The position numbers and the translations under genes were made by a program. Source: a virus. Taken from it: DNA of 38,135 nt. The notes below the pieces were generated by a model. That model saw only the letters and a program-made list of their open reading frames with translations, made no database searches and was not told the DNA's origin. Shown piece after piece: positions 4,710-38,135 of this stretch. Location: the IMG/VR virus record IMGVR_UViG_3300023180_000160, positions 1 to 38,135 of that record; one strand, 5' to 3'. Each line of letters starts with the position of its first letter. The first letter of the stretch is position 1.

Positions 4710-5895
4710 AGTCACATGCGTAATGCTGACGACTAAATGCCGTGAGGACTTTGCACGTAAGTCATTGCGTTCATTCATGAGGCAGACGGTTGATTGTGCT
4801 GAGCTCCTGATCATCAACCAAGGAGGCACACGAATTGCCGGTGATAACTATCGAAACGTTAAGGAGGTGTTCGTAGAGCCCTTTGAAACAATCGGAGAGG
4901 CCAGAGAGTATGCGCTTGACCTCGTGCAGACTCCTTACATCATGCACTGGGACGATGACGACTATCATGGGAAAGATCGAGTCAACCTTCAGCTAGGACA
5001 AATCGAACTTACTGGCCGTCCCAACACACTTAAGAACATGATCATCTGCGATCTTCACGACGTTGATCCTTTCGTCGCTCAAGGTGGTAAGTTCGGATTC
5101 GTCGGACTCTTTTGTGCAAAGACCGAAGATGTCAGAAAGATAGGCTACCCTCATAAGATGATGCACGAGGACTATCACATCACGTCTCAACTCGAAGACC
5201 TTGATGTAATCGACAACTCGCCAACTAATTATGTACGCTGGTATCACGGCAAGAACACGTGTTCCTATGACCATGTGTTTAATAAAATAGGTAAGACACG
5301 TAAGCAATTAAGCATGCGCGAACGCTGGTACTTCAATGCTGTGAAGGCTATGTATCTTCAATATGAATGTAACATTAAATGCAAAACAATCGAGGACATC
5401 GATAAAGTCGTACATGGCGTTCCTTTTATGACATACGCTCGAGCCTTATGGCTTGCGTCATACTTCAGTGATAAGCCTTCAAGACGTGCACTTGAGATAG
5501 GAACGTGTTATGGAGTTGGAGCTGCATACTTAAGTGTAATATTCGATCACGTGGATACGTTAGACCTTAACATATCGATGCACCGTGCTCCTAACGTATG
5601 GGACACGCTTGCAGCAACTCAAAGAACCAACGTCGTCGCTCATTATCGTGAACCTGACAGCAACGGGTTTCCTGAGTACATCACAGGTCGTTATGACTTC
5701 ATATTCATTGATGGTGATCACAGTGAATCAGGTGTTCGTCACGACTTACAAGAGGCCTATGAGTACTTAGCACCGGGTGGCACGATCATTATGGATGACT
5801 TGGATCATCCTACCTATAAAGGTATTCGCAAGGTCTTTGATGAGTGCACGCTCGATAAGACAGAGTATAATGGATGGGGAATCATTAGACCATGA
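4702..5895 (+). CDS. Glycosyltransferase-methyltransferase fusion protein
   Basis: This 397-residue protein joins two enzymes. Residues 1 to about 215 look like a GT2 glycosyltransferase, with a beta start TKVTCVMLTT and an Asp-rich metal site HWDDDDYHG (D84-D87). Residues about 255-397 form a class I SAM-dependent methyltransferase of the Methyltransf_24 type: ALEIGTCYGVGAAYL (SAM loop), FIFIDGDHSESGVRHDL and APGGTIIMDD. I chose ATG 4702, which overlaps the previous stop and has AAGGAAGGCGAGAGG just upstream. Such a fusion could add a sugar and then cap or O-methylate it. Its four-base overlap with the fibre gene suggests the fibre or its glycan as a target; this is inference. Confidence 0.75.
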   Translation: MTKVTCVMLTTKCREDFARKSLRSFMRQTVDCAELLIINQGGTRIAGDNYRNVKEVFVEPFETIGEAREYALDLVQTPYIMHWDDDDYHGKDRVNLQLGQIELTGRPNTLKNMIICDLHDVDPFVAQGGKFGFVGLFCAKTEDVRKIGYPHKMMHEDYHITSQLEDLDVIDNSPTNYVRWYHGKNTCSYDHVFNKIGKTRKQLSMRERWYFNAVKAMYLQYECNIKCKTIEDIDKVVHGVPFMTYARALWLASYFSDKPSRRALEIGTCYGVGAAYLSVIFDHVDTLDLNISMHRAPNVWDTLAATQRTNVVAHYREPDSNGFPEYITGRYDFIFIDGDHSESGVRHDLQEAYEYLAPGGTIIMDDLDHPTYKGIRKVFDECTLDKTEYNGWGIIRP

Positions 5896-8800
5896 CAGTA
5901 TACGATCCTAACGATTACGTCTATGACGTGCTTAAGACCTTTCTCACTGACTACACGAGCCTAGGTCATCACGTAATGGCCGGTGCGTTTAGCACTGATA
6001 ATATCAATGACTTTAGTACGCTTGATGACTCTGCAAATGATGCATTAGATAACGACGGCACAGGAGGCTCTTGGGATGGGTCTTCTTGGAAGGCGTCATG
6101 GTACAACACCGACTATGACAAAGTACTTGAGACGTTTCCATCGGCCGCCAGCCCTGAGTCAAGTCAAGACAATGCTTGGACGATCTTAAACGGAGTATGG
6201 TTTTGTGGAACGTTCAACGGCGTTCAGCAAATGTATGTCACATCAAGCGGTGCAAGCGAAACCGATTTCGCAAGAGTTCGCTGTGATGTTGCCGTAAGCG
6301 GGTCCACACATCCAGGCCAAGCAGTTGTGTTTGATTACCTTAATGCCGTAGGACTTAATTCATCAAGCGGCGGTGCAAGGATGGGTGCACTGCTTCAGTA
6401 CTCAGGAGTTGCTGACACAGGCTATGCTGTTGTATGCGATGCCTCACGAACTGCTGCACCATTCGAGTTTGACATACGCGTCTATTCAATAAGTGCCGGC
6501 ACTGTCACAGAGCTACACGAGACACTCGACGTCGAATGGAACTGGGGTGGCGGTGGAGGCGCCAGTAATGTACTGATGTGGTTCCGAGTTCAAGCCGGCG
6601 TGTTCTCCTTATGTGTAGGAACTGACGAAACTAAAATCTGGACTTGGACTGACAGCAACACATCGAGGTTCTCAGGCGAGTATTCAGGGGTCTGCGGAGA
6701 TAAAGGATCAGTAGCCACTAACGTTGCGCTTAACGAATTCCGATTCTTTAACATCGATGACGCAACGTCGACGTTGTTCAATGATAACGCTACACCTGAG
6801 TCTGACCTTTCAGATTCAACGTCTGAGTTCAATGACACAGGCGACACTAATGTCTACCAGAACATTTATCCTTATGTCTTCTGTGCGAGGTACAGAACTG
6901 AAAGCAATAACTGGAAACATCGTGCATCAGTTGAGTTCACAAGATCAGGAACGAACCTTAAGCGATGGCTGTTCCCAAGATCAAGTTACTCAAACTCAGG
7001 CAACGCGTTTGTAGATAATTTCACAGATGGTAATGGCACAACCCTAGCTTCGCATACTCCCGACACAGGTACTTCTTGGGCAGTAGGAAGCTTAGGAAGT
7101 GGAAGTGCAACTATTCAATCAAACGCTGTAAGATTCTACGGGCAAGTTGATGTTCGTGACTGGTTGGCCTTAGGAGTATCAGGCGTTGAGTCGTGGCACA
7201 ACTACTTGCAGGTTAACATCCTCCAGTCAAGACTTGACAATTACGTTGGGACAAAGACAGTTCGTCAAGGACTTGTCGTTCGTTACTGGAATCAATACGA
7301 TATAACTGTTGCTTACCTTGAACCTATAGGCACATTGTCTGCTTACTTAAGGATCGCAACGGTAACGTGGCGTAACACCACGCAAGAGACCACAACAGTA
7401 CTTGCGTCTGTGCCTGTGAGCTTAGGCGATGGCACCACCTGGGACCAGCTTGCTGTATGGGATCTTAACGGCCACATCTATGTTAGGCATCAAGCAGAGA
7501 TAGACGGTGTGACAATTCAAACTTGTGTCGCAGCTGATGCTTATGATGATGTCGTTAGTCGATATGAAATCGATGGGACACATCAACTCGTAACAGACGG
7601 CACTTGGGGTTGTGGGCTGTATGCCTACGATGGTACGCCGTTCGCAGGTTACGTTGAAATGCACTGGGACAGTTATGTCCATACTACAGACGCATCAGTT
7701 AACCTTCAAGCAGACGATGCTGACACGGATTTCTATGCGGGATTCGTTCCTGTCATAGGAGCTGACATACCACCTCAAGGATTAACAGGAACCGATCTTG
7801 GGTTTCTTGTGCGAGGCACTTGGCTGCCTGTGGATGACTATGACGTATGGTACAATGCTTTTGCTTTCCTCAAGTTCAACATCCCAGCCTACTACTTCTA
7901 CTCGATCAATCAGCAACTGCCGGCGTTTATTCAAACAGCGTTCTGGCTTGTGCACGAAGGACCTGTCGCCCAAGTACTTGCTCCATTACAGCAAGAGGCC
8001 TTTTGGGTTAACATCGCAAGCATGGAGCAAACGCTTCAAGCAATGCAACAAGCGGTCACCGCCTCTGTGCCTCCACAATCAGTATCGCAAATTGATTCGT
8101 TACTTGCGTCCTTAAGAACGGGCATCACGGTTTATAATCCTCAGTCAGTTGCTGAGGTTGAATCGATACTGCCGACGCTTACACAATCAATCCAAGCCTC
8201 TTACGATTATGTCTATGAGGCAATTCAAGACTTGCCCGCCTTTCAGCAAAGCCTTGCGGCCGCTGGTGAACATGCTGGAGCCATCAGTACTTATCTTGCA
8301 ATGCTGTTGACGAATGCTGAAGTATATCCTGAGAACAGCCTAGACGTTGAGTCAGTTTTACAGGCTATGGTTTCATCCGCTACGGGTCCTGCTTCTAGCG
8401 CGGGACAGATCAATCAGCAACTTCAAGCGATGGTTTCAGAGGCAGTAGTAGAGATCTCAATCCTATCGAATATAGCTCAATCCTTGCAACCTATTAAGCA
8501 AGAAGTTTACACAGCATCGATTCATCTTGCAAGCATATCGTCTGACTTCCCTGCAATGTCACAAGGCATGGAAGCCATCATCGAAGTTGAAGCGGCAGTC
8601 AATTCTGTTCTTGCTGCTATCGATGCTGTCGCAATAGGCCGAACCGATTTCTCTGCACAAGTCAATCAAGTTCTTAAGGCAATCAACCAAGCGGCCGCGG
8701 CAGCAGCAGACTATGAGGCGACGATCAATCAAGCCTTGCAGCCTCTCAAGTCAGAACTTGATGGGTCAACTGAAATAGGATCATCGATTGCACAACGCCT

Positions 8801-9206
8801 TGAAGCACTCAACCTGTTCGCTGAGGCAACAGGAACTGAATTCGAGATACGTCAAAACTTAGTCGCCTTACAGATGTCGGCCTTTGCAAGTATCTTAACT
8901 GATACTGAGGTTCGTCAAACACTTCAAGCGATGACACAAACAGCTGAGTCCTTAAACGATGTGGCTGCTGCAATCAACACTGGGCTTGGGTACCTACAAG
9001 CACTAAGCACTGTGCAAGCAATCGACGACGCCACAATCAACTCCGTGTTAAGCGCAATGTCTAACGCGGGTCAAATAAAAGTTGAGGAACGAGGTATTTA
9101 TAGAATACTGCTCAAGGTATTCGCTGCTAAGTCACTTGAGCTCAAAACAGAAATGTCCGACGAACTTAAACTTAAGGTATACAAAGATGAGATGCGCCAC
9201 CTATAG
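5892..9206 (+). CDS. Large tail fibre or host-contact protein with helical repeats
   Basis: This 1104-residue protein is the largest in the window. Residues 1 to about 610 are beta-rich with aromatic and Gly/Ser-rich stretches, and look like two concanavalin/LamG-like units (roughly 60-300 and 370-590). A short hydrophobic aromatic stretch follows (FLKFNIPAYYFYSIN, near 660-673). Residues 672-1061 are about 19 tandem helical repeats of 20-23 residues with a core like VLKAINQA...INQ. A charged tail ends the protein. The build suggests a fibre with a carbohydrate-binding head and a rod of coiled helices. It overlaps both neighbours, and its glycosyltransferase neighbours may modify it. No chaperone or peptidase motif is evident. 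Confidence 0.65.
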   Translation: MTVYDPNDYVYDVLKTFLTDYTSLGHHVMAGAFSTDNINDFSTLDDSANDALDNDGTGGSWDGSSWKASWYNTDYDKVLETFPSAASPESSQDNAWTILNGVWFCGTFNGVQQMYVTSSGASETDFARVRCDVAVSGSTHPGQAVVFDYLNAVGLNSSSGGARMGALLQYSGVADTGYAVVCDASRTAAPFEFDIRVYSISAGTVTELHETLDVEWNWGGGGGASNVLMWFRVQAGVFSLCVGTDETKIWTWTDSNTSRFSGEYSGVCGDKGSVATNVALNEFRFFNIDDATSTLFNDNATPESDLSDSTSEFNDTGDTNVYQNIYPYVFCARYRTESNNWKHRASVEFTRSGTNLKRWLFPRSSYSNSGNAFVDNFTDGNGTTLASHTPDTGTSWAVGSLGSGSATIQSNAVRFYGQVDVRDWLALGVSGVESWHNYLQVNILQSRLDNYVGTKTVRQGLVVRYWNQYDITVAYLEPIGTLSAYLRIATVTWRNTTQETTTVLASVPVSLGDGTTWDQLAVWDLNGHIYVRHQAEIDGVTIQTCVAADAYDDVVSRYEIDGTHQLVTDGTWGCGLYAYDGTPFAGYVEMHWDSYVHTTDASVNLQADDADTDFYAGFVPVIGADIPPQGLTGTDLGFLVRGTWLPVDDYDVWYNAFAFLKFNIPAYYFYSINQQLPAFIQTAFWLVHEGPVAQVLAPLQQEAFWVNIASMEQTLQAMQQAVTASVPPQSVSQIDSLLASLRTGITVYNPQSVAEVESILPTLTQSIQASYDYVYEAIQDLPAFQQSLAAAGEHAGAISTYLAMLLTNAEVYPENSLDVESVLQAMVSSATGPASSAGQINQQLQAMVSEAVVEISILSNIAQSLQPIKQEVYTASIHLASISSDFPAMSQGMEAIIEVEAAVNSVLAAIDAVAIGRTDFSAQVNQVLKAINQAAAAAADYEATINQALQPLKSELDGSTEIGSSIAQRLEALNLFAEATGTEFEIRQNLVALQMSAFASILTDTEVRQTLQAMTQTAESLNDVAAAINTGLGYLQALSTVQAIDDATINSVLSAMSNAGQIKVEERGIYRILLKVFAAKSLELKTEMSDELKLKVYKDEMRHL
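7905..9074 (+). repeat. About 19 tandem ~21-residue coding repeats
   Basis: This part of the fibre gene encodes repeated units with the pattern (V/L)L.AM.QA, a variable middle, then (I/V)NQ or V(E/N)S. Clear units are VLQAMVSSA...INQQ, LQAMVSEA...IAQS, VLKAINQA...INQ and LQAMTQTA...INTG. Spacing is about 63 bases, but the DNA is diverged, so these are old protein repeats, not recent duplications. Confidence 0.75.
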
Positions 9207-13008: not shown

Positions 13009-13911
13009 ATGCCTTCACGAAAAAGCGATGGATACTTACCGCCACTACGTGAACCTCATAAGGACAAGGTTGAGTACTTGGCAGCCAACGGTTACTTTGA
13101 AGGTGACATGCCCGATGCAGACAAGCTCTCCGAAAAAGACACTCTATTCCGAAATGCTACGCTGGCATTCCAAGAACTTGCGGGACTGCTGCCAGATGGT
13201 AACTTCGGACCTCAATCAATTCGGCGGACGCATGATAAGTGCTGTGCGCTACCTGACCTTAATCACGGATTCGTGCGTAAAGGAAATGGTTGGGCTGAGT
13301 TCTCAATTGAGGAAGCATGCACAAGAAAGTGGGCAACGAAGAACTTAACTTGCACTCACAACTTGTCACACTCTGCTATGTCAAAGGAAGAGATTCACAA
13401 GGCGTGGTGGGAAGCAAAAGTTGAGTGGATGAAAGTTTGTGGTATCGTCTTCAAGCATGTGCCTTACGATGGTGCCCGTTCTGCAAACTTTGTTCACAGC
13501 ATGGAACGTATGGATGGCTCAAGTGGCAAGCTTGCTTATCACTACCTTCCTAACTGTGGACAGCCTGCCGGCTCAACATTGGTTGGTCGATTCGATTCCG
13601 GCGAACGATGGAGCTTCAATTTCTTCAAGGCCGTAAGCGGTCATGAGGACGGACATGGCCTTGGACTTGGTCACGACTCGAATCGTAACGCTTTACTCTA
13701 CCCGTATTATCAGAGAAACGTTATCGTTCCAACAGCACGAGATGCCAAGCGTGTTCAGGACAGATACGGGAAGCCAACAACACCACCTACTGATCCAGGA
13801 ACTCCGGGACCAGGGATTCCACGAACCTTGGAGCAGCGTGTTCTACAGAATGAACTCGACATCTCAATCAACCGACAATTGATCGAAATGTTGATGTCAG
13901 AAAGGCGATGA
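13009..13911 (+). CDS. Matrixin-type zinc metalloprotease with cysteine-switch prodomain
   Basis: This 300-residue protein follows the layout of a matrix metalloproteinase. Residues about 43-77 form a peptidoglycan-binding-like prodomain (LAFQELAGLLPDGNFGPQS). CCALPD at 78-83 matches the PRCGVPD cysteine switch in position and kind. The catalytic domain starts near RKWATKNLT (about 106) and carries HEDGHGLGLGH (H212, E213, H216, H222), a full HExxHxxGxxH zinc site. The Met-turn is ALLYP, so Leu replaces the usual Met. A Pro/Thr/Gly-rich linker leads to a short C-terminal helix. No signal peptide is present, so release would need the holin-like protein or co-release at lysis. It sits where an endolysin usually lies and may attack a protein-rich envelope; the substrate is inferred. 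Confidence 0.8.
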   Translation: MPSRKSDGYLPPLREPHKDKVEYLAANGYFEGDMPDADKLSEKDTLFRNATLAFQELAGLLPDGNFGPQSIRRTHDKCCALPDLNHGFVRKGNGWAEFSIEEACTRKWATKNLTCTHNLSHSAMSKEEIHKAWWEAKVEWMKVCGIVFKHVPYDGARSANFVHSMERMDGSSGKLAYHYLPNCGQPAGSTLVGRFDSGERWSFNFFKAVSGHEDGHGLGLGHDSNRNALLYPYYQRNVIVPTARDAKRVQDRYGKPTTPPTDPGTPGPGIPRTLEQRVLQNELDISINRQLIEMLMSERR

Positions 13912-26703: not shown

Positions 26704-28704
26704 ATGACAAGTACTCACGCTGCCCACAATCCTATCCGAGACAAATGGCTCGAGAAGGAACTTAACCTTGCAGACAATGATCTGCTTCATGTGGAGCTTA
26801 ACGCCGATGGCGACAAGTTCATTATCCGGGTGACCGGTGTTGAAGGAACTTACGCTAGCTGGCAAGCTCAAAAGTTTCCGGCATTCTTTCCGGAGAACAA
26901 GCGCCTTGCTGATGGTCGCTATGCCATACCTGTGTGTGACACTTCAATCGAGATCATCGACGCTAAGTGGCCTTCGTCTCAAGTCCTTTGGGCAGACGAC
27001 GCCAAAGACACTGCAACTTGGATTCGTACTGAGGCCCAAGTCGAGCAACTTAATGCGAATCTCTTCGCAAGGTTCAAGGCTTATCAGCAAGTCTTGCTTG
27101 GGAACCCAGTGTCCGAAGAAGTACCTGCTTGGTTCAACATTCGCAAACCCTTTCCTCACAATGAAGAATGCGGCTTAAGCAAGTACCAGACAGTTGCTGC
27201 AACGAATGCCGCACGGGCTGAAGGTTATGGGTTGTTCATGGAGCAAGGAACAGGAAAGACGCCTGTTGCGATCGCAGCCATTTGCAGAAAAGCAAAGGCC
27301 CACTACGAAGCAGCTCAAAAGGATCCTGATCTTTGTCCTTTATTCAAAGTCATTGTGGTCTGCCCGAACAACGTTCGTGCTAACTGGATCGCTGAGCTCG
27401 AGAAGTTTAGCACAGAGCCACATCGCGCTGGAGTTCTTCGAGGAGGAAAGATGCAAAGGCTCCGCACATTCATGGAGCTTATGCTGCCAGACTCCGACAT
27501 CAAGTTCACTGTGGTCGTTTGCTCATATGACTGCTTAGTCAACATGTGGCCACAGTTGCGGACTGTTGGAATGTGGGACATGGCAATCCTTGATGAAAGC
27601 CATTACATCAAGTGGCATACAACTAAACGATGCAAGACTGCGATGCAACTCAGAGATATAAGTCGCCATCGATTGGTCCTCACTGGAACGCCCATCACGA
27701 ATACCGCCATCGATCTATATACTCAATTCGAGTTTATGCGACAGGGAGGATCTGGATTCTCTAGCTTCAACTCGTTCCGTTCCTTCTATGGTGTGTTCAA
27801 GGATCGAAGCGGCGACCACCGAAAGCTAGTTGGCTTGCAGAACATGCCTTTCATGCAAGAACGACTTGCTCGAATGGCTTTCATCATTCGTAAGGAAGAG
27901 GCGCTACCATTCTTACCGCCTAAGAACTACGACATCGAAGAAGTTGAGATGGGCAAAGAGCAGACAAAGGTTTACACCGAAGTTTCTCAAACGCTTATCG
28001 CAGAACTTGAGAATGAACTTGAGATAGCAGGCAACAAGTCGCTTACGATCAATAACATACTTACACGTATGCTACGACTTGCTGAGATCACTTCGGGTTA
28101 CTGCAAGTTTGATCCGATTTATGACGATGATGGTAATGAAATCGAATCTGGTGGTGTTCATCGCTTTGATCCTAATCCTAAGGTCGAAGGTTTGATGAAC
28201 ATACTTAAGAATAAAGAACCCGGACAAAAGACAATCATCTGGGCTTGCTTTACCCAAGACATCCGAACGATATGTGCAAGACTTAACATTGAAGGAATAA
28301 GACATGTTCGTTTTGACGGATCAACCTCAGAGAAGGATCGTGCTGAAGCTGAACGCGCATTCAATAATGACGACGATTGCACAGTCTTTGTTGGCAACCC
28401 GCAAGCGGGCGGGACGGGGTTGAACCTGTTGGGCTATCCTCCAGGATCTCCGGATGTTACCGACACTGACTGCGATCACGTCATTTACTATAGTCAGAAC
28501 TGGTCAAGTACTGCACGAAGTCAATCCGAGGATCGTGCTCATCGTCGTGGTACTCGTAAACCTGTTAGAATCACAGACCTCTGTGTACCTGGTACAATCG
28601 ATGAAGAGATTCGCAAACGTGTTCTGGGCAAGAGGCTGCACGCTTTGCAGGTCGCTGATATCCGAGAGATCCTTCAAGATATTCTGAAAGGAATTGTGGC
28701 ATGA
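26704..28704 (+). CDS. SNF2-family DNA helicase/translocase
   Basis: This 666-residue protein is a superfamily 2 ATPase. Motif I is EQGTGKTP (182-187), motif II DESH (297-300), motif III LTGTPI (327-331), motif V VGNPQAGGTGLNLL (about 563-576) and motif VI QSEDRAHRRGT (607-617). This pattern is SNF2-like, the type used by phages as DNA translocase or branch-processing helicase in replication and recombination. Residues 1 to about 150 form an extra N-terminal region of unknown fold. It has a duplicated strong leader and overlaps the next gene by four bases. Confidence 0.92.
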   Translation: MTSTHAAHNPIRDKWLEKELNLADNDLLHVELNADGDKFIIRVTGVEGTYASWQAQKFPAFFPENKRLADGRYAIPVCDTSIEIIDAKWPSSQVLWADDAKDTATWIRTEAQVEQLNANLFARFKAYQQVLLGNPVSEEVPAWFNIRKPFPHNEECGLSKYQTVAATNAARAEGYGLFMEQGTGKTPVAIAAICRKAKAHYEAAQKDPDLCPLFKVIVVCPNNVRANWIAELEKFSTEPHRAGVLRGGKMQRLRTFMELMLPDSDIKFTVVVCSYDCLVNMWPQLRTVGMWDMAILDESHYIKWHTTKRCKTAMQLRDISRHRLVLTGTPITNTAIDLYTQFEFMRQGGSGFSSFNSFRSFYGVFKDRSGDHRKLVGLQNMPFMQERLARMAFIIRKEEALPFLPPKNYDIEEVEMGKEQTKVYTEVSQTLIAELENELEIAGNKSLTINNILTRMLRLAEITSGYCKFDPIYDDDGNEIESGGVHRFDPNPKVEGLMNILKNKEPGQKTIIWACFTQDIRTICARLNIEGIRHVRFDGSTSEKDRAEAERAFNNDDDCTVFVGNPQAGGTGLNLLGYPPGSPDVTDTDCDHVIYYSQNWSSTARSQSEDRAHRRGTRKPVRITDLCVPGTIDEEIRKRVLGKRLHALQVADIREILQDILKGIVA

Positions 28705-29033
28705 ACCGCGTATTCGTTTTACAGCAACCACGTCGTAAGGACTTAGACCTTTCGACATTGTACAACTTTGGAGAAGTCGTTGAGCTCATCACGGACGATG
28801 AGCGGCGACCTCCGATATTTGAGCCAGCTTTTGCAAGACTGGTAGCCGACAAGATTCGCGAGTCAAGCTTCGATCCTAAAAAGGACAAGTTTGCAATCGT
28901 AGGATCTTTATCCACGATGGTCGTGGTGACTGGGGCATTAGTTTCGATGTACGGCAACGTAACCACTTTGCAGTACGATGCCTCAGTACTCTCGTATGTT
29001 GAGGTTGAAATAGGAGACAAGGTCTATGTATGA
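28701..29033 (+). CDS. Hypothetical protein after the helicase
   Basis: This 110-residue protein starts with an ATGA overlap and an AAAGGA ribosome site. It reads as a small alpha/beta fold with alternating strands and a Pro-containing loop (ERRPPIFEPAFARLV), then strand FAIVGSLSTMVVVTGALVSMYG. It resembles small phage proteins of unknown role often found beside helicases. It shares an eight-base overlap with the following gene. Confidence 0.55.
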   Translation: MNRVFVLQQPRRKDLDLSTLYNFGEVVELITDDERRPPIFEPAFARLVADKIRESSFDPKKDKFAIVGSLSTMVVVTGALVSMYGNVTTLQYDASVLSYVEVEIGDKVYV

Positions 29034-29583
29034 TACCGCAGTCAAAGTTTACAAGTTGTGCAAGGAGCTACACGAAGAAATGTTTAAGCTTCGTGCTCCA
29101 TTGTTCGACTTAGTAAAGGCTGAGGGCGACTTACAAGAAATCGCTGATGTCGTTTATGCCACACGCGAAGCGATGCGCCATCTTGAAGAGGTTCGTAAAG
29201 ACGTTCGCAAGGCAAACGACGTCGCACAAAAACTCGGATGCGTGCGATGGACAGAGCAAGACGATGCAGAACCTATCAGGACAGATAATTGTATAGGCTC
29301 GCCTAAAGTTCGAATGACTGCAAGCGTTCCATCAAGGCGAAAAGATCCCGAAGCCTTTGAGGAACTTATGCGATCACTTAACATTCCAGAGGCCTTATGG
29401 GTTAGTGATAGTGTTAGACTACACTGGCCCGGGTTTGTGGAATACCTAACTGAGTTACTTGCAGACGGCAAGCAGCTGCCTAAAGGAATCGATCCTGAAA
29501 GCAAGTACCCAGTGTTCACTCTCGAGGTTAGAAAGGTAAAGGACATGGACGAAGTGCTGCTTGAGTCGAACCTCGACGACTAA
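29026..29583 (+). CDS. Hypothetical helical protein in the replication module
   Basis: This 185-residue protein has a long helical N-terminal half (about 1-70) rich in Glu, Lys and Val with heptad-like spacing (LVKAEGDLQEIADVVY, REAMRHLEEVRKDVRKA). The C-terminal half is mixed, with a basic RMTASVPSRRKDPEAF segment. I do not recognise it. A coiled N-terminus suggests oligomerisation. It ends in a run of acidic residues (ESNLDD). AGGAG lies upstream, and a 57-base gap with TTAACT/TTGATTA-like short repeats follows. Confidence 0.55.
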   Translation: MYDTAVKVYKLCKELHEEMFKLRAPLFDLVKAEGDLQEIADVVYATREAMRHLEEVRKDVRKANDVAQKLGCVRWTEQDDAEPIRTDNCIGSPKVRMTASVPSRRKDPEAFEELMRSLNIPEALWVSDSVRLHWPGFVEYLTELLADGKQLPKGIDPESKYPVFTLEVRKVKDMDEVLLESNLDD

Positions 29584-29640
29584 TGATTTGTGTTAACTAA
29601 TTAACTGATTACTTGATTACCATTATGAAGGACTGCCATC

Positions 29641-30456
29641 ATGGCTAAGAAGACAGACGAAAACGAGTTGATCCCACAGGAAATGCAATTGCCTTCTTTT
29701 ATGCAAGAGGGTGAGCGCGAAGGCATTGATGAACTCAACAACTTTATTCGGCCTCCGCGTATCAAGGTTGTTCAATCAACGTCGGGCGAAGAGTTCACCG
29801 ACAAGTTCGACGCTGGTGAAGTCATTGTGTTACCAACGATGACCAAACTGGCCGGCATGGAGGATAAGAAGAACGGCACTCCGTTCCTTATCGTTCCTAT
29901 CTTCTTTTGGCCTGAGTGGGTTACACTTAATCCAAGAGAGCAAAAGGATGCGCCTCGTGTGGCTGCAAGATCGCATGATCCACGCTCATCGATTGCAATG
30001 AAGTCACGAGACTCAAACACTCGTCAAGAGGATGTCGGGTTGTCTTGCGGCAAACCTGTTTCGCATGAAGAGCATTTGAACTTTATCGTTGCTCTGTACA
30101 ACATGCAGGAACATCCGCTTAACCTCGAGCCGATGATCTTATCATTCCGCGGAGGTGAACACAGTGTTGGCACGAACTTCGCTGCCTTGATCAAGATGCG
30201 CAAGGCATCGATCTATGGCAACGTATTCCAAGCTCACTCGGTTTATAGATCAAACGATAACGGAGTGTGGTACGGGATCGAAGTCGACAACCCTGCAGGT
30301 CCTGCTTATGTTCAAGATGAGGACCTTTACAAACGATTCGCTGAGCTTCATGCTGAAATGAAAGAGGCTCATGCTGATTCACGAATCGTCAATGATCTGG
30401 AAGACTCAGGATCAAGTGATAACGATCCTGACCCTACGGCTGGCTCTGAATTCTGA
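29641..30456 (+). CDS. Probable single-stranded DNA-binding protein
   Basis: This 271-residue protein has a beta-rich core with basic and aromatic residues (FIRPPRIKVVQS, VPIFFWPEWVTLN, IVALYNMQEHPLNLEPMI). A flexible acidic tail of Asp, Ser and Glu ends in a single Phe (PTAGSEF). Acidic tails ending in Phe are known from phage SSBs such as T7 gp2.5, where the end contacts replication partners. The gene lies just before the primase-helicase, and a strong terminator follows, consistent with a highly needed protein. The fold is not recognised by signature, so SSB is inferred. Confidence 0.55.
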   Translation: MAKKTDENELIPQEMQLPSFMQEGEREGIDELNNFIRPPRIKVVQSTSGEEFTDKFDAGEVIVLPTMTKLAGMEDKKNGTPFLIVPIFFWPEWVTLNPREQKDAPRVAARSHDPRSSIAMKSRDSNTRQEDVGLSCGKPVSHEEHLNFIVALYNMQEHPLNLEPMILSFRGGEHSVGTNFAALIKMRKASIYGNVFQAHSVYRSNDNGVWYGIEVDNPAGPAYVQDEDLYKRFAELHAEMKEAHADSRIVNDLEDSGSSDNDPDPTAGSEF

Positions 30457-30474: not shown

Positions 30475-30516
30475 GGAGCCACCCTTTTGCATGGTTGCGA
30501 TTGGGTGGTTCCTTTT
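30475..30516 (+). terminator. Rho-independent terminator after the SSB-like gene
   Basis: GGAGCCACCC (30475-30484) pairs with GGGTGGTTCC (30503-30512), a 10-bp stem with one G-U wobble, followed by TTTT. The primase-helicase ATG at 30536 lies just behind, so read-through is needed for the genes downstream unless another promoter is used. Confidence 0.8.
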
Positions 30517-30535: not shown

Positions 30536-33337
30536 ATGAAACAGATTAGTGTCATAGCCGAACTTGAGAACTACGGCATCGACTATGATTGGGCTGCCGA
30601 CGAGGAAGTTAAGGTATGTTGTCCGTTTCACAACGACACATCACCTTCTTGCCACGTGAACGTTGAGAAGCGAGTCTTTAAATGTCAGACTGCTGGATGT
30701 GGAAAGACTGGCGACATTATATCGTTGCTTGCTCGATTCCTAAAGACGTCACGTGAAGTCGTGTTTGCTGACCTATCGAAGCGATATGAATTCGACACGT
30801 CTAAAATCATCGATGCTGATACCGTTGAGAAATACCACAGAGCCATTTGGGATGCAGGACCATTCCTTACAGAGTTGCATAAGCGTGCAGTAACAGACGA
30901 GTTGATCCGCAAGTATCGATTAGGCGAACACAAAGGACGTGTCACGATACCTGTTAAGAATGCTGGCGGCTTGTATGTTAACATTAGGAGGTATTTGCCT
31001 GGAGCACCTGGCCCAGAGAAGATGAAGAATCTTAGAGGCCATGGTAAGATCCGCCTATACCCAATCGAACAACTTGAATACGATGAGATACTTGTATGCG
31101 GCGGCGAGATGAAGGCAGTCGTCGCAGCTGCTGAACTTAACAAGCATAACATAGGCGCTGTATCTGCAACATGCGGTGAGGACAACTGGGATGCCACGTT
31201 AAGTAAGGAATTCATAGGCAAGAAAGTCTGGGTTTGCAATGACATCGATGAAGCAGGTCAAGAATCTGCTAAGATGCGTTGTGCAATGCTTAGGCATCAA
31301 GCGAGGTGGGTGGGCAATATCATATTGCCTTTGGATAAGGACAAGCATCCTAAAGGCGACATCAATGACTATGTTGCTGAAGGTGGAATGCTTAAGCCAC
31401 TACTTGATGACTGTTCTGAGTTCAAAGCTGAAGGCAAGGATCAGCTTGAAGACGTTGACCCAGAGGACACGGACCTAACAAGAGCAGTACTTGCAGAAAA
31501 CACAGGCAAAAGAATCAAGCTTACGTCTGTTGTGTCAGCAATGGATACTGCACCTTATTCGATTCCAGCTGAAGTAGAGGTTCAGTGCTCTGAGGATCAA
31601 AAGGTTTGTGCTGCTTGCCCTGTGATGATGACAGGCGAGCACTGTTTCTCAATCAATCATGAATCAGACGCTGTGCTTGAAATGGTTGGAGGTTCCAAGA
31701 AAGGTCAACGTGAAGCACTCATGTCCTCGATTGGAATACCTAGACGTTGCGGTGTGTGCGAATTCGATGTGCATGAGTACCACAACGTAGAGGATGTAAG
31801 AATAAGTCCTCAACTTGAAATCACGAATCGTTCAAGCGATCGTGTTATGCAACCTGCCTATTGTATTGGTCCCGGGTTGGAACTTAATGAGTCCTACGAG
31901 ATGATAGGTCGCATGTGGCCTCATCCTCAATCACAACAAGCGACGTTACTTATAAGTGGATATGAAACAACCCAGGACGCGCTTAGCACGTATCAACTTA
32001 CCAATCCTGAAAAGCTCAAGGTCTTTCAACCTAAGAAAGGTCAATCGATTGAGGATAAGCTCGATGAGATCTATAATGACCTTGAAGCAAATGTCACTAG
32101 GATCTTTCAAAGACGCGACTTGCATAAGATCGTTGACTTAACTTATCACAGCCCTCTGTTTCTTGACTTTGATGGTCGCACTATCAAAGGTTGGGTTGAG
32201 TCTTTGATCTTAGGTGACAGTTCACAAGGCAAGTCTGACACTACCCAACACTTAATGAAACACTATGGACTAGGCGAAAAGGTTGAATGCAAGAATGCAT
32301 CAGTTGCGGGTTTACTTGGCGGCTTGCAGCAAATGGGAAGTAAATGGTTTGTGACGTGGGGAGTCATTCCTACTCATGATAAGCGCTTAGTTGTACTTGA
32401 GGAACTTAAAGGCGCAAGCACAGATGTTATTGGTAAGTTGACTGACATGCGGTCATCTGGAGTTGCAGAGATTCCTAAGATCGAGAAACGCAAGACGTCA
32501 GCACGTACACGACTTATCGCATTAAGCAACCCAAGGAGTGAGCATCCACTTCATACATATAACTTTGGCATCGAAGCGATCAAGGAACTTGTGGGTGGTC
32601 TTGAGGACGTAAGACGATTCGATATCTTCGGCCTTGTGTCAGCAAAAGAAATTGACACGGGCAAGTTGAATGAACTGCAAGCTATGAGACCAGACGTCGA
32701 ACATGTCTATACTAGCGAACTATGCAGGGACCTGATTCTATGGACCTGGACGCGAGATAGAGCCTACTTCGACCCTGCCGCAAAGGATTCTATTTTAGCT
32801 GGGGCCACCGAGTTATCAGGGATGTTCTCGGACGCTGTACCTATCTTCGATAGAGGTTCAGGTCGATATAAAATTGCTCGACTTGCTGCTGCCCTTGCCG
32901 GCCGCTTATTCTCTCACGACGATGACTTCAACTTAATCGTAAAGAAGGAACACGTTGAGTACATTGTCAACATGCTTAAGCGAATGTATTCATCACAGGT
33001 CTTTGGGTATAGTGATTTCACTCAAGCAATCAACATAAGCGAACAACTTAAAGACCCAGACGTTGTTAAGCGCCACATAGAGTCCTCGCCGTTTCCTAAG
33101 GATTTCGTAACACAACTACTTCACACCAATAAAATAGATATGCAAGACATACAAGATTGGTGTGGGTGGGATAAGACCGAGGCACAAGGAACATTATCGC
33201 TCTTCGTTCGTAAGCACTGCCTAGTGCGCGAAGGTCGATCATACCGTAAGACGGGCCCGTTCATCAAGATGCTTAAGTCATTACTTGAGGATGGCAACTT
33301 GCAGGACCGTCCTGACTTTATTGAAGAGGAGTTCTAA
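30536..33337 (+). CDS. DnaG-type primase fused to an MCM-like helicase
   Basis: This 933-residue protein carries two replication engines. The primase part has a CHC2 zinc site (C29, H32, C50, C55) and a TOPRIM core with E192 (CGGEMK) and D236/D238 (CNDIDEAG). Residues about 328-485 look like the MCM N-terminal OB/zinc domain (APYSIPAEVEVQC, then a CAAC pair and a CGVC pair). Residues about 530-735 look like MCM AAA+: Walker A GDSSQGKSD (K566), Walker B VVLEEL, a hairpin block VAEIPKIEKRKTSARTR, sensor LSNP (N665) and arginine finger RRFD (R694). A helical C-terminus follows. It should unwind and prime phage DNA. I chose ATG 30536 because the longer frame starts inside the terminator. Confidence 0.8.
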   Translation: MKQISVIAELENYGIDYDWAADEEVKVCCPFHNDTSPSCHVNVEKRVFKCQTAGCGKTGDIISLLARFLKTSREVVFADLSKRYEFDTSKIIDADTVEKYHRAIWDAGPFLTELHKRAVTDELIRKYRLGEHKGRVTIPVKNAGGLYVNIRRYLPGAPGPEKMKNLRGHGKIRLYPIEQLEYDEILVCGGEMKAVVAAAELNKHNIGAVSATCGEDNWDATLSKEFIGKKVWVCNDIDEAGQESAKMRCAMLRHQARWVGNIILPLDKDKHPKGDINDYVAEGGMLKPLLDDCSEFKAEGKDQLEDVDPEDTDLTRAVLAENTGKRIKLTSVVSAMDTAPYSIPAEVEVQCSEDQKVCAACPVMMTGEHCFSINHESDAVLEMVGGSKKGQREALMSSIGIPRRCGVCEFDVHEYHNVEDVRISPQLEITNRSSDRVMQPAYCIGPGLELNESYEMIGRMWPHPQSQQATLLISGYETTQDALSTYQLTNPEKLKVFQPKKGQSIEDKLDEIYNDLEANVTRIFQRRDLHKIVDLTYHSPLFLDFDGRTIKGWVESLILGDSSQGKSDTTQHLMKHYGLGEKVECKNASVAGLLGGLQQMGSKWFVTWGVIPTHDKRLVVLEELKGASTDVIGKLTDMRSSGVAEIPKIEKRKTSARTRLIALSNPRSEHPLHTYNFGIEAIKELVGGLEDVRRFDIFGLVSAKEIDTGKLNELQAMRPDVEHVYTSELCRDLILWTWTRDRAYFDPAAKDSILAGATELSGMFSDAVPIFDRGSGRYKIARLAAALAGRLFSHDDDFNLIVKKEHVEYIVNMLKRMYSSQVFGYSDFTQAINISEQLKDPDVVKRHIESSPFPKDFVTQLLHTNKIDMQDIQDWCGWDKTEAQGTLSLFVRKHCLVREGRSYRKTGPFIKMLKSLLEDGNLQDRPDFIEEEF

Positions 33338-33837
33338 TGCTTAAATACATTATGCAATGTGTTGACGCCTTTCACAAAAAGATGAACCTGCCTCGTGAGG
33401 CTGATATCCCAATATCAAGAAACGAAAGGTTGTATGAAGCGGGCGTTGCAATCCGAGACATTGGACTTGACCTCGAAGAATTCATCGACGAGGACATGTG
33501 TGTTAGTCGAGGCCACTTGCTTGCTGAAGAGTTAGGCGAGTTCTTAATGGCCTTGGCTGATGGCGACGAAGTTGAAGCTCTTGACGGAGCTACCGATTTG
33601 CAGTATGTGCTCTCAGGTACTGCAAGGATTTATGACTGGCCGATGGATTCGGCCTTTGCTGAGGTGCATAAGAGCAACATGAGTAAGACTCGTGCTGCTG
33701 ACGATCCCGGTCGTGTACGTGATAAAGGTGAAACGTATGTAGCGCCTGACCTTGAGCGCGTGCTCAAGATTCACAAAAGCAGACCGACCCATGACGGAGT
33801 TTTGAGAGAGATTCCTCAGGGTGACGAAGAGGAGTAA
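33337..33837 (+). CDS. MazG-like nucleoside triphosphate pyrophosphohydrolase
   Basis: This 166-residue helical protein shows the metal-binding EELGE (64-68) and a DGATD (83-87) that match the all-alpha NTP pyrophosphohydrolase pattern (ExxE then DxxxD). Such enzymes cut dNTP to dNMP. In a cytosine-modifying phage this would turn dCTP into dCMP, the substrate of the downstream thymidylate-synthase-like enzyme, as T4 dCTPase does; that specificity is inferred. It shares a TAATG overlap with the primase-helicase and is three bases from the next gene, so all are co-expressed. Confidence 0.75.
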   Translation: MLKYIMQCVDAFHKKMNLPREADIPISRNERLYEAGVAIRDIGLDLEEFIDEDMCVSRGHLLAEELGEFLMALADGDEVEALDGATDLQYVLSGTARIYDWPMDSAFAEVHKSNMSKTRAADDPGRVRDKGETYVAPDLERVLKIHKSRPTHDGVLREIPQGDEEE

Positions 33838-33840
33838 GTT

Positions 33841-35106
33841 ATGAAGAAGGCTTTAGGAGTTCACGTGTTCGCAGGAGGCTTCACTCTTGGTGTTAACAAG
33901 GTTCACAATGTGGACACACACCTTGAGACCCACGGGTTTGCGTTAGACACTGCTGAAAAGGTTTGTGGTGTCAACACAGTCAATTCTGATGCAAAGGATT
34001 GGCCTAAGATTGAAGCTGATTGGGTTTTCGGTAATCCACGATGCACAGGCTTCAGTTGTATTACTTCAGGCTATTCTGAAGAGACACACGGAGCTTGGGC
34101 GAAGCAAACACGGGACATTCATGAACTTATGGAATATGGAGTTAAGAATGATTACCCGGTCATCTGTTGGGAGAGTGTTCAACAAGCATACTCCACTGGT
34201 CGCGAGCTACTGGATTACTTGCGTGATCAGTGGTGCGTGCCTAATGGTTATCGCATTGCTCACCTTTTTATCAATGCTGGTACTTTTGGGTGCCCTCAAA
34301 TGCGCAAGCGGTATTTCTTCTTGGCATATAAGAAGGATGCAAACTTCAACATCGTTCCACCCGATCTCTACCCATGGCGTCCGGCAACTTATGACCCGCT
34401 GTATCAAATGAAAGATATGGAGGCTTATGAATATCCTTTCCACACAAGCGATGGTTACGACGGTGGTGCGTACTGTCAATTGTCGGAGGATGAAAAGGAA
34501 GTCGTGCCTTTGCTACCTAACGGGTATTGCTTAAATCGATTCGCGAAGTATTCGCCGACATCGTTGCCTGAGCATTACCGTTTCGTATGGATGGCACGCA
34601 CAAGTGATATGCCGTTCTCACTGCACTGCATTAGTCGCACGAGCTGGTTGAATCAATTCCCGACTATGTCGAGTAGTTGCATTCGGCAAATCCACCCTGA
34701 GCACCACCGTCCTTTTACTGTTCGCGAGCTAGCAGCCGCCATGGGCTGGGGCGACAATATACCTGTCGGTCGAAACCCTGGTGCTCAGCTTGCGAAAGGC
34801 GTCGTGCCAGCAGTAGGCCAATGGCTTGCTGAACAGGTCGACCTTTACCTCGACAATCATTGGGGCAATGAGGACTGGGAGTCATCCTATAATCATCGTG
34901 ATTGTGTATGGGAAGGCGACGATGTTCATGGTGCGGACGAGAAAGTTTTCAACCTAACGAACTATGTCTCTACTATAAGGAGAAGCCATGACGTTCTTCC
35001 ATACGGAGGAGTGCCACACAAGTATCGATTCAATCTGGACCCAGACACTGGAAAGCCTATTATCCCGTGGGACGAACTTGTTAAGTCGCGCCGGCGGTAC
35101 GAGTGA
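33841..35106 (+). CDS. Divergent C5-cytosine DNA methyltransferase
   Basis: This 421-residue protein follows the C5-MTase motif order. SAM-binding VHVFAGGFTLGV is motif I and NPRCTGFS (C68) is motif IV. CWESV (E111) stands for ENV, motif VI. GTFGCPQMRKRYFFLA is motif VIII. FTVRELAAAMGW and NPGAQLAKGVVPAVGQW are motifs IX and X. A target-recognition region lies about 165-285. The usual PPC is PRC and ENV is ESV, so it is a diverged member, perhaps with altered chemistry or target. It may protect phage DNA or work with the modified-nucleotide genes beside it. Its last 119 bases overlap the next gene. Confidence 0.82.
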   Translation: MKKALGVHVFAGGFTLGVNKVHNVDTHLETHGFALDTAEKVCGVNTVNSDAKDWPKIEADWVFGNPRCTGFSCITSGYSEETHGAWAKQTRDIHELMEYGVKNDYPVICWESVQQAYSTGRELLDYLRDQWCVPNGYRIAHLFINAGTFGCPQMRKRYFFLAYKKDANFNIVPPDLYPWRPATYDPLYQMKDMEAYEYPFHTSDGYDGGAYCQLSEDEKEVVPLLPNGYCLNRFAKYSPTSLPEHYRFVWMARTSDMPFSLHCISRTSWLNQFPTMSSSCIRQIHPEHHRPFTVRELAAAMGWGDNIPVGRNPGAQLAKGVVPAVGQWLAEQVDLYLDNHWGNEDWESSYNHRDCVWEGDDVHGADEKVFNLTNYVSTIRRSHDVLPYGGVPHKYRFNLDPDTGKPIIPWDELVKSRRRYE

Positions 35107-35926
35107 GCTGCTTGGGTTCAGTGCGACCTTAATCGACATTGAGTACAACTGGTTGTGCAATCCTATTCGGGACCTGTGCAAAAGTTATGCCTCAGCAGAG
35201 CTTCTTTGGTACATGAGCGGCGAGCGTGACATCAAAAGAATTAAGGAGTACGCTCCATCATACCAAAACTTTGCTGAGCATGACATAGCACACGGGGCCT
35301 ACGGATGGCGTATGGCTAATCCTTTAGCCTGCCCGAAGGTCAACCAGATAGGCTATGTCTTAGACATTCTTCGTAAGCATCCCAATAGTCGTCAAGCTGT
35401 CATATCCCTATGGTGGCCTACTGACTTACCTCATGCTTTCAAGTTAGATGTCAAAGATATGCCGTGTACTCTAACCTTGCAGTTCATTGCCCGTCACGGT
35501 AAGTTGCATATGATCGTGAATATGCGAAGTAACGACATATGGCTTGGGTTTCCTTATGATGTGTTTTGCTTCACTACTCTGCAAAAGTTGATGGCACGAT
35601 CACTCGACTTGGAGTTCGGAACCTATACTCACAATGTAGGTAGTATGCACATTTATGACAAGCACTTCGACAAGGCTAAGTTGGCCTTGAGTTGCACAGA
35701 CTACAAACATCGCCGGCTTGATTTACTTGGAAAGGACGAAAACACTTACACAGTCAGTTCGGCGGTTGCGAAAGAAGAGATTCTTAGATGCAAGCGGGAA
35801 GACTATATGCTCGACCACGATTACATAAACGCCTTCCCATTCTTTTGTGATATGCTTCAAGCATGTCGTCATAAACTTTACGATGTTAAACCTGTTTACA
35901 GATCGGAGGCATGGAAGAGATGCTGA
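34988..35926 (+). CDS. Thymidylate-synthase-family enzyme, likely dCMP hydroxymethylase
   Basis: This 312-residue protein keeps the thymidylate synthase core: SRAGGTSELLG near the N-terminus, catalytic C160 in DMPCTLTLQF, R180 in MRSNDIWLG and HIY at 221-223. Where thymidylate synthase has Asn (LGLPFN) it has Asp (GFPYD, D191). That change is known from phage dCMP hydroxymethylases such as T4 gp42, where it lets the enzyme accept dCMP. It probably makes 5-hydroxymethyl- or 5-methyl-dCMP using folate. The ATG has AAGGAG just upstream and lies 119 bases inside the methyltransferase gene. The early Arg/Gly block shows that this long overlap is real. Confidence 0.8.
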   Translation: MTFFHTEECHTSIDSIWTQTLESLLSRGTNLLSRAGGTSELLGFSATLIDIEYNWLCNPIRDLCKSYASAELLWYMSGERDIKRIKEYAPSYQNFAEHDIAHGAYGWRMANPLACPKVNQIGYVLDILRKHPNSRQAVISLWWPTDLPHAFKLDVKDMPCTLTLQFIARHGKLHMIVNMRSNDIWLGFPYDVFCFTTLQKLMARSLDLEFGTYTHNVGSMHIYDKHFDKAKLALSCTDYKHRRLDLLGKDENTYTVSSAVAKEEILRCKREDYMLDHDYINAFPFFCDMLQACRHKLYDVKPVYRSEAWKRC

Positions 35927-36453
35927 TTATTGAAGGACCAGACTTAGTGGGGAAGACAACATTGGCCGGCAAGTTTCTAGAAGCGTTGCCTCGACATATG
36001 TATCGACACTTCGGGTTGCTGCCACCTCACTTCGATTACTTTCACGACTATGACATTCACAGTGGTCATTACTTCGTGCAAGATCGATTCCACATGAGCG
36101 AGTTAGTGTATGGCACTGTATGTCGAGGACAGACGCCTATCACGCCGAACTTGTATCGATTCATTGACGCAATGCTTACGCTTAAAGGCATGATGACTGT
36201 TGTCATTTGCTTTGAGGATCCTGCAATGCTCAAGGAGAGATACAAGGAACGAAAGGAAATGTATGACGTAGGTCAATGTCTTGCAGTTAACTCTGCTTAC
36301 TTCGACATCGAGAATACGTTTGATCGGTATGACATTCAATATGACTTCTTTATCAAGTTGAATGAGGACATGCCTTACGTTACTGATCGTCAAGCTCAAA
36401 TCATACTTGATGCTTACCTTGAACGACAAGAGGAGATGTTCAACATATGCTGA
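35920..36453 (+). CDS. Deoxynucleoside monophosphate kinase
   Basis: This protein of about 177 residues is a P-loop kinase of the thymidylate-kinase type, with Walker A GPDLVGKTT (6-14) and a DR motif in VQDRFHMSELVYG. Arg/Lys/Glu-rich LKERYKERKEMY is probably the lid. It would phosphorylate the (modified) dNMP made by the enzyme before it, as T4 gp1 does for hydroxymethyl-dCMP; the specificity is inferred. I chose ATG 35920 over 35911, because GGAGG lies ten bases before 35920 and only one base before 35911. It overlaps both neighbours by seven bases, each time as ATGCTGA. Confidence 0.8.
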   Translation: MLIIEGPDLVGKTTLAGKFLEALPRHMYRHFGLLPPHFDYFHDYDIHSGHYFVQDRFHMSELVYGTVCRGQTPITPNLYRFIDAMLTLKGMMTVVICFEDPAMLKERYKERKEMYDVGQCLAVNSAYFDIENTFDRYDIQYDFFIKLNEDMPYVTDRQAQIILDAYLERQEEMFNIC

Positions 36454-38135
36454 CTTTTGATAATGGTGTTAAGATGGTTGAACGCGTCGATGAGTTGCCG
36501 GCACTAGCCGGCGCTCATACGATCTTCGCTGACTTTGAAACAACGTCCGGCAGTAAGACTGAGAAATCGGTAAACCCTTGGCACAACTGTGACGTTGCCG
36601 GCCTGGGCATAACTGTGGATGATCACAAGCAAGCGTGGTACATTCCAGTTGGTCACCACAACGGGCCAAACATTGATCGTGACGCGTTCATTGACTGGTG
36701 GTTCGATGTTGTTGACCAATCAAAGCAGTGGACGAACCACAACGTGAAATACGACTGCCACGTAAGTGCTAATGCCTTAGGAGTATTGGTCGACCCCGAC
36801 TACATACTTAAGGACACGATGACTCAGGCTAAAATCATCGATAGTGACCGCCAGTTTAAGGGCGGGTATTCTATCGACGCGCTCAGTAAGCATTGGCTCA
36901 GGCATGATATTAGTGAGTATGAAGATGCTATGAAACCGTACTTGCATAATAACAAAGATTATGGAGCGATACCGCCTGACATCATGGCACCTTACGCTGG
37001 CCAAGACGTGATTACTGCAAGGAGGTTGGACAAGTACATCGAGTCCCGAATGCCCGAGGAATGCCGGCGAGTCTCAAACACTGAAATAGAATTGACGATG
37101 GCCTTGTTTGAAATGGAACGTGAAGGAATGCGCGTCGACCCAAACATGCTTAAGGCCCAAGAGATCAATTGCATGAACAAGATGTTGGAGCTCGATGAAA
37201 AGATGTATGACATCACGGGCCAAATGTTCAGGGCTGACAACTCAGCTGACTGCTATGACATCCTTTGCAATCAATACGGTTTACCTGTCCTAGGATGGAC
37301 GGAGGACAACAACCCTTCATTCGATAAAGACACTCTTAAGCTGTACTTGACCCATGCCGACGCTCCGGTTGAACTGGTCAAGACAATGTTGCAGTACCGA
37401 TCACTATCGACCTTCGTTAGCTTTTTCGTTAAGCCGTATCAAGAACTGCACGTTGATGGAATCTTACATCCAAGTTACAATCAAGCTGTGCGTACAGGTC
37501 GTATGTCATGTAAGAAACCCAACTCACAGCAGCTTAACAAGTTAGCTAAGTCATTGATCATTCCTCGTGAAGGATGCGCTTTCTTTTCGATTGACGATTC
37601 GCAAATCGAATTCCGAACGATTGCGCATTACACAAACAACCCAGCGATCGTTGCAGCATACAACACAGACCCATGGACAGACTACCATCAACTTGTCGCT
37701 CAGCTTTGTGGCATTAAGCGTAAGCCGGCTAAGACGATGAACTTCCTTATGGGTTTCGGTGGTGGACGCGCTTTGGTCGAAGAGGCCTTGTCATCTAACT
37801 TGGATCTTGTCGGTCACTTGCTTGAGATCGCAAAAGAGAAAGCATCGTCCGAGGATCAAGTCGATAAGATCTACAAGTACCTAAGAAATCGAAAAGCAAA
37901 GTCTGTGTACGATGGGTATCATGAAATGGTTCCTGAGCTTAAGCGTGTAAGTCGTAAGGCTGCAAAGGTTGCTGAGGCTCGAGGCTACGTTAAGAACTTG
38001 CTTGGACGTCATAGACACTTGCCGGCGGATCGTGCTCACATCGCTTTCAATACATTGAACCAATCAACTGCTGCTGACCTTATGAAGGAACGAATCGTTA
38101 CCTTAAGACGTAAGCTTAAAGGAACTCCTATTCGT
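36447..38135 (+). CDS. polA: Family A DNA polymerase (partial at window end)
   Basis: The frame is open from ATG 36447 to the window end (563 residues). The 3'-5' exonuclease is intact: FADFET (D29, E31), NHNVKYD (D103) and YAGQD (D187). The polymerase part has GRMSCKKPNSQQ, motif A SIDDSQIEFR (D383) and the O-helix RKPAKTMNFLMGF (R425, K429, F433). The residue equal to E. coli F762 is Phe, and the one equal to Y766 is Phe. In motif A the usual Tyr after the catalytic Asp is also Asp (D384). No 5' nuclease domain is fused. Motif C lies past the window. It would replicate phage DNA, perhaps using modified dCTP. Confidence 0.93.
   Translation, partial: MLTFDNGVKMVERVDELPALAGAHTIFADFETTSGSKTEKSVNPWHNCDVAGLGITVDDHKQAWYIPVGHHNGPNIDRDAFIDWWFDVVDQSKQWTNHNVKYDCHVSANALGVLVDPDYILKDTMTQAKIIDSDRQFKGGYSIDALSKHWLRHDISEYEDAMKPYLHNNKDYGAIPPDIMAPYAGQDVITARRLDKYIESRMPEECRRVSNTEIELTMALFEMEREGMRVDPNMLKAQEINCMNKMLELDEKMYDITGQMFRADNSADCYDILCNQYGLPVLGWTEDNNPSFDKDTLKLYLTHADAPVELVKTMLQYRSLSTFVSFFVKPYQELHVDGILHPSYNQAVRTGRMSCKKPNSQQLNKLAKSLIIPREGCAFFSIDDSQIEFRTIAHYTNNPAIVAAYNTDPWTDYHQLVAQLCGIKRKPAKTMNFLMGFGGGRALVEEALSSNLDLVGHLLEIAKEKASSEDQVDKIYKYLRNRKAKSVYDGYHEMVPELKRVSRKAAKVAEARGYVKNLLGRHRHLPADRAHIAFNTLNQSTAADLMKERIVTLRRKLKGTPIR

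Follow-up and report, generated by a model that had tools for sequence, protein, structure and literature searches.

Replication machineries usually fall on one side of a divide, pairing either DnaG with DnaB in the bacterial manner or an archaeo-eukaryotic primase (AEP) with MCM in the archaeal/eukaryotic manner. Fusions of AEP with MCM, and MCMs carried on bacterial mobile elements, have already been described (PMC5862659); one of these, the AEP-MCM known as BcMCM from a B. cereus prophage, combines 3'-5' helicase with primase activity (reviewed in PMC4538821) and probably belongs to the same AEP-MCM clade as the proteins compared below, though no sequence comparison stands behind this placement. 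In the eukaryotic replisome, the lagging-strand template passes out through the Mcm3/Mcm5 zinc-finger channel, and the primase is located over this channel (PMC10501992). The helicase of T7 gp4 is of the DnaB/RecA type and translocates 5'-3' along the strand that receives the primers. The protein family described here crosses the bacterial versus archaeal/eukaryotic split inside one gene.

Architecture of a TOPRIM-MCM fusion protein

The window analyzed here is an entire virus record of 38,135 nucleotides (IMG/VR IMGVR_UViG_3300023180_000160), probably a fragment of a phage genome. An intact ORF at 30536–33337 on the plus strand encodes a TOPRIM-MCM primase-helicase of 933 aa; an in-frame upstream ATG at 30491 provides an alternative start for a 948-aa product, and relatives show no conservation of the 15 extra residues. 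A sequence-only reading had proposed that this one 933-residue protein joins a DnaG-type CHC2/TOPRIM primase to a complete MCM. That claim held in profile searches, predicted folds, and residue conservation, as did the motif readings, with the exception of the TOPRIM glutamate, which is E191 rather than E192 (Table 1).

Table 1. Features of the TOPRIM-MCM gene and of the neighboring polymerase gene, in window coordinates
Feature	Position	Strand	Evidence
CHC2 zinc finger, residues 24–88 (C29, H32, C50, C55)	30605..30799	+	Pfam PF01807, 3e-11, over cut-off
DnaG-type catalytic core with TOPRIM, residues 100–290 (E191, D236, D238, D275)	30833..31405	+	Profile match to DnaG chains
MCM N-tier-like OB fold with predicted C4 zinc site, residues 313–480	31472..31975	+	AlphaFold/Foldseek
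MCM-type AAA+ motor, residues 500–790	32033..32905	+	Family profile, Foldseek
Walker A (GDSSQGKSD)	32213..32239	+	G560, D561, K566 in 55/55
Helix-2 insert, residues 590–609, an MCM-clade feature	32303..32362	+	Helix and beta-hairpin in model; W608-G609 in 55/55
Walker B (LVVLEE)	32387..32404	+	E623 in 55/55; acidic residue before it is D or E
Presensor-1 beta-hairpin with lysine K648	32459..32506	+	Modeled strands 643–646/652–655; K648 in 44/55
Sensor 1 (SNP)	32525..32533	+	N665 in 55/55
Arginine finger (EDVRRFD)	32603..32623	+	E690, D691, R694 in 55/55
C-terminal winged helix, residues 854–905	33095..33250	+	H-H-H-E-E pattern in both models
Family A DNA polymerase, likely replisome partner	36447..38135	+	PF00476, 1.7e-35; runs off window end

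The N-terminal half has the architecture of a DnaG-type primase, comprising a CHC2 zinc finger and a TOPRIM domain. Pfam matches to TOPRIM from the single sequence were weak (PF13362, 0.025; PF13155, 0.045). A family profile was built from an alignment (A2) of 55 relatives from viral contigs, at 28–54% identity to this protein, since single-sequence Pfam searches had left the MCM assignment in doubt; the N-terminal part of this profile matched DnaG chains at 1e-25. The four TOPRIM acids are each present in 55/55 relatives, and C29, H32, and C50 of the zinc finger in 52–53 of the 55. The zinc finger nonetheless appears variable, because the homologs in the phages Krampus and Wollypog have no CHC2 match at cut-off, yet their TOPRIM domains score well. 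No AEP match was found in the TOPRIM-MCM protein, either with Pfam or in an AEP domain search.

The helicase half is an MCM in architecture, with a zinc-bearing OB N-tier, helix-2 insert, presensor-1 hairpin, arginine finger, and winged helix. The Pfam MCM match to the single sequence (6e-4, 19.4 bits) fell below the curated cut-off of 23.3 bits, and no DnaB match was returned by the same type of search. Positions ~470–780 of the 55-member profile matched SsoMCM, other archaeal MCMs, and MCM2-7 (~1e-10, PDB), with DnaB absent among the displayed matches. AlphaFold models of the full-length protein (pLDDT 89.8, pTM 0.66) and of residues 301–933 (pLDDT 92.3, pTM 0.87) were each compared with the PDB using Foldseek; for both, the 50 best matches were all MCM chains, with E-values down to 4e-24, ~540–800 aligned columns, TM-scores up to ~0.6, and about 14% identity. 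These alignments (≥540 columns) extend beyond the AAA+ core to include the OB/zinc N-tier. The OB-zinc cysteines C351, C358, C361, and C405 are conserved in 55/55 relatives; the zinc itself is predicted, not observed.

In both halves, the catalytic residues (the TOPRIM acids; Walker A, Walker B, sensor-1, and arginine finger) are invariant across the 55 relatives, and therefore neither the primase nor the motor looks decayed. Both halves are likely to be catalytically intact and active, although this activity is inferred from conservation, without biochemistry.

Distribution and exchange of primase halves

The TOPRIM-MCM fusion is common in deposited phages and unrecognized in their annotation. 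A tblastn search recovered 80 phage records, 47 of which contain most of the query in one place, and a scan of IMG/VR viral contigs recovered 239 related stretches. Relatives occur in phages of Microbacterium (e.g., Krampus) and Bacillus (BSP7 and the BSTP phages), as well as Weizmannia phage Youna2, Arthrobacter phage Wollypog, and Paenibacillus phage SV21. Labels in the TOPRIM-type records examined include DNA primase, primase/helicase, primase small subunit, hypothetical protein, and DNA polymerase, but never MCM. No description of a TOPRIM-MCM was found in the literature searched, which left out most subscription papers and Kazlauskas 2016; the paper describing phage Youna2 mentions neither primase nor helicase. 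Within the limits of that search, AEP-MCM fusions are known and the TOPRIM-MCM variant is new. The sequence-only reading had proposed that such a pairing is rare and called for a search of phage genomes; with that search run, the rarity claim holds only in part, as the fusion is common in phages, but unrecognized in annotation and undescribed in the literature searched.

The same helicase half is joined to AEP in Bacillus-group phages and prophages. The AEP-MCM proteins of Bbo-125 and B. velezensis p3 match both AEP (4e-10) and MCM (1e-13) in Pfam, and homology between the helicase half and those of Bbo-125, B. velezensis p3, and their relatives extends over ~600 residues at 27–30% identity. 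The AEP-MCM helicase half aligns over its whole length, from zinc OB to winged helix, zinc cysteines included. Among the fetched loci, thinned at 88% identity, 82 helicase halves occur with TOPRIM, 23 with AEP, and four with neither; these counts are no census, as the searches were seeded with both types. The four without a primase comprise two truncated contigs, one archaeal virus ATPase, and L157, a lone relative of the MCM half (4974–6842; 622 aa from GTG) without a fused primase, for which no CHC2 or AEP match was found anywhere in its 46 kb contig. Pattern searches with two further alignments were of limited yield: the A5 patterns, run against the genome collection, returned AEP-MCM loci only, and those from A3 (two AEP-MCMs), which were poorly chosen, returned only two loci.

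Because the helicase half is common to TOPRIM-MCM and AEP-MCM proteins, at least one primase swap has taken place on the same MCM half. The helicase-half tree also places one AEP protein, L169, beside a TOPRIM clade (support 99/92), and L169 and that TOPRIM clade together beside the main AEP clade (99/95), so that two changes of primase type are needed. This AEP-MCM (L169, 3837–6974) is the best single case for a second swap. As an AU test against a single AEP clade was marginal (p 0.044), the second swap is considered probable, not shown. The careful tree omits SV21 because of its long branch. The ATPase of haloarchaeal virus HJTV-4 was tried as an outgroup and rejected as too divergent, with a very long branch and coverage of 23% of columns; without a usable outgroup, the tree could not be rooted, and no direction can be assigned to the swap. 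Within the TOPRIM-MCMs, separate trees of the two halves agree in their main clades, indicating that primase and helicase have traveled together and that the fusion is stable.

Gene neighborhood, proposed replicative role, and alternative readings

The TOPRIM-MCM gene sits within a run of plus-strand phage genes. Upstream, in order, are genes for a tape measure protein, an SNF2-type helicase, and two Pam3-like proteins, the latter pair (gp32-like and gp34-like, 28701–30456) directly preceding the primase-helicase and of unknown function. Downstream, a MazG-like pyrophosphohydrolase, a C5 cytosine methylase family protein, a thymidylate-synthase-family enzyme, and a possible thymidylate kinase follow consecutively (33337–36453), and then the family A polymerase. 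This row could represent a modified-base pathway, which is offered only as a possibility; a 43% relative, MW202657, has genes labeled 'pyrimidine hmase' and dCMP deaminase nearby. Elsewhere in the window, an ORF between portal and head genes (13009–13911) encodes a metalloprotease domain of the Matrixin type (PF00413, 1.5e-14) and also matches peptidoglycan-binding domains weakly. A 1104-aa ORF (5892–9206), for which PHROG gave no match and Pfam only a weak winged-helix one, is preceded by two ORFs with glycosyltransferase/methyltransferase matches.

No DnaB_C was found in seven named phage genomes or in the 48 kb sister contig of this phage, while control genomes were positive. CHC2 occurs once per genome in five TOPRIM-type genomes, in the primase-helicase gene, and AEP was found only in AEP-MCM genomes. 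The protein is likely the phage's own primosome in one polypeptide, an MCM-family replicative helicase with a DnaG-type primase on its N-tier, with activity, polarity, and geometry inferred. For this particular phage, a second helicase outside the 38 kb record remains possible and is not excluded.

In the mechanism proposed here, the protein would assemble as a hexamer, as inferred from its family, and this hexamer may load at the phage origin, perhaps via the winged helix. Like other MCMs, the ring would track the leading-strand template in the 3'-5' direction. A short linker ties the primase to the zinc-bearing N-tier, where the primase would be kept beside the exit of the displaced strand; the full-length model leaves the placement of primase relative to ring undetermined. 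From this position, it would prime Okazaki fragments on the excluded strand for the phage family A polymerase, primer synthesis being likewise inferred. Helicase and primase would then work on different strands, an arrangement found in the eukaryotic replisome but not in T7 gp4.

Several other readings of the locus can be considered. The ORF could be the product of assembly chimerism, or a pseudogene, but no evidence in favor of either was found. The complete protein is present at 100% identity in three further contigs, with a fourth containing residues 356–933, and the same architecture occurs in cultured phages; there are no stops, and the active sites are invariant in relatives. Conservation across relatives at 28–54% identity excludes a chance ORF or chimeric assembly, and this explanation as a whole is all but ruled out. 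Alternatively, the ATPase could be another presensor-1-clade AAA+ helicase (SF3, DUF3987, DUF927/Cch) that resembles MCM. The single-sequence Pfam score below the gathering cut-off is consistent with this, as is the recovery of DUF3987 and similar helicases, at weaker scores, when Foldseek is run against viral models. Against it, the family profile returns MCMs for the motor in the PDB, the AEP-MCM homologs of the same half pass the Pfam MCM cut-off, and both the N-tier OB with its C4 zinc site and the winged helix lie inside the MCM fold alignments, making a non-MCM identity very unlikely. The original proposal would have fallen had DnaB, SF3, or some other AAA+ family matched better than MCM; this refutation failed, with MCM the best match by profile, AlphaFold, and Foldseek. 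Readings of the helicase as DnaB or SF3 were rejected on the profile search, on Foldseek, and on the lack of DnaB_C in the genomes searched.

A different objection concerns function rather than identity. The protein could be an initiator or origin-melting helicase of the SaPI Rep or SCC Cch kind, its primase being used only for the start, after which the host DnaB/DnaG replisome takes the fork. The C-terminal winged helix is compatible with this reading, and it is common for mobile elements to pair an initiator helicase with a primase, either fused to it or encoded nearby (PMC7581432). However, these phages have their own polymerase, which fits a self-sufficient fork, and the initiator reading appears unlikely.

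Beyond the preferred reading of a one-polypeptide primosome, a bolder one may be stated, namely that these proteins belong to a class of phage replisome that is widespread but not yet described, with a bacterial DnaG-type primase seated on the N-tier of an MCM ring moving 3'-5' and priming the strand opposite the encircled one. On this view, the two unrelated primase families would also have displaced one another on a single type of MCM two or more times. The present data leave this combined proposal as apt to prove wrong as right. The occurrence of TOPRIM-MCMs in culturable phages of Bacillus, Microbacterium, and Arthrobacter makes a testable question of whether a primase must share the origin of its helicase, or whether position at the fork suffices; one purified protein whose primase half can be exchanged would serve as a minimal model of MCM-coupled priming.

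Comparison with known systems

In PHROGs, residues 301–921 are matched at 6e-71 by PHROG 18685, a family of unknown function there. The first 373 positions of that profile lie outside the match, so the N-terminal half proper to that family does not resemble TOPRIM. SF3-type helicases accompanied by primases of either DnaG or AEP type, fused or neighboring, provide a precedent for one helicase family combining with either primase family (PMC10061031), though the helicase family in those systems is not MCM. Archaeal MCM and eukaryotic MCM2-7 have in common with this protein the OB-zinc N-tier, an AAA+ domain with helix-2 insert and presensor-1 hairpin, and the winged helix; these cellular MCMs differ in having no covalent primase and share only the ~14% identity seen in the fold alignments.

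Two kinds of described fusion are each similar in one half. BcMCM-type AEP-MCMs of Bacillus prophages (McGeoch and Bell 2005; Samuels 2009; PMC4538821) resemble it in the helicase half (zinc OB, AAA+, winged helix), which is homologous to that of AEP-MCM proteins, and differ in the primase, which is archaeo-eukaryotic there and an unrelated CHC2/TOPRIM enzyme here. The contrast with AEP-MCM fusions drawn in the sequence-only reading is upheld, and is sharpened by the whole-length homology of the helicase half. T7 gp4, which is matched by the primase profile, likewise has a CHC2 and TOPRIM primase N-terminal to a hexameric replicative helicase; there the helicase half is of the DnaB/RecA type, whereas here it is an MCM motor, for which 3'-5' movement is expected.
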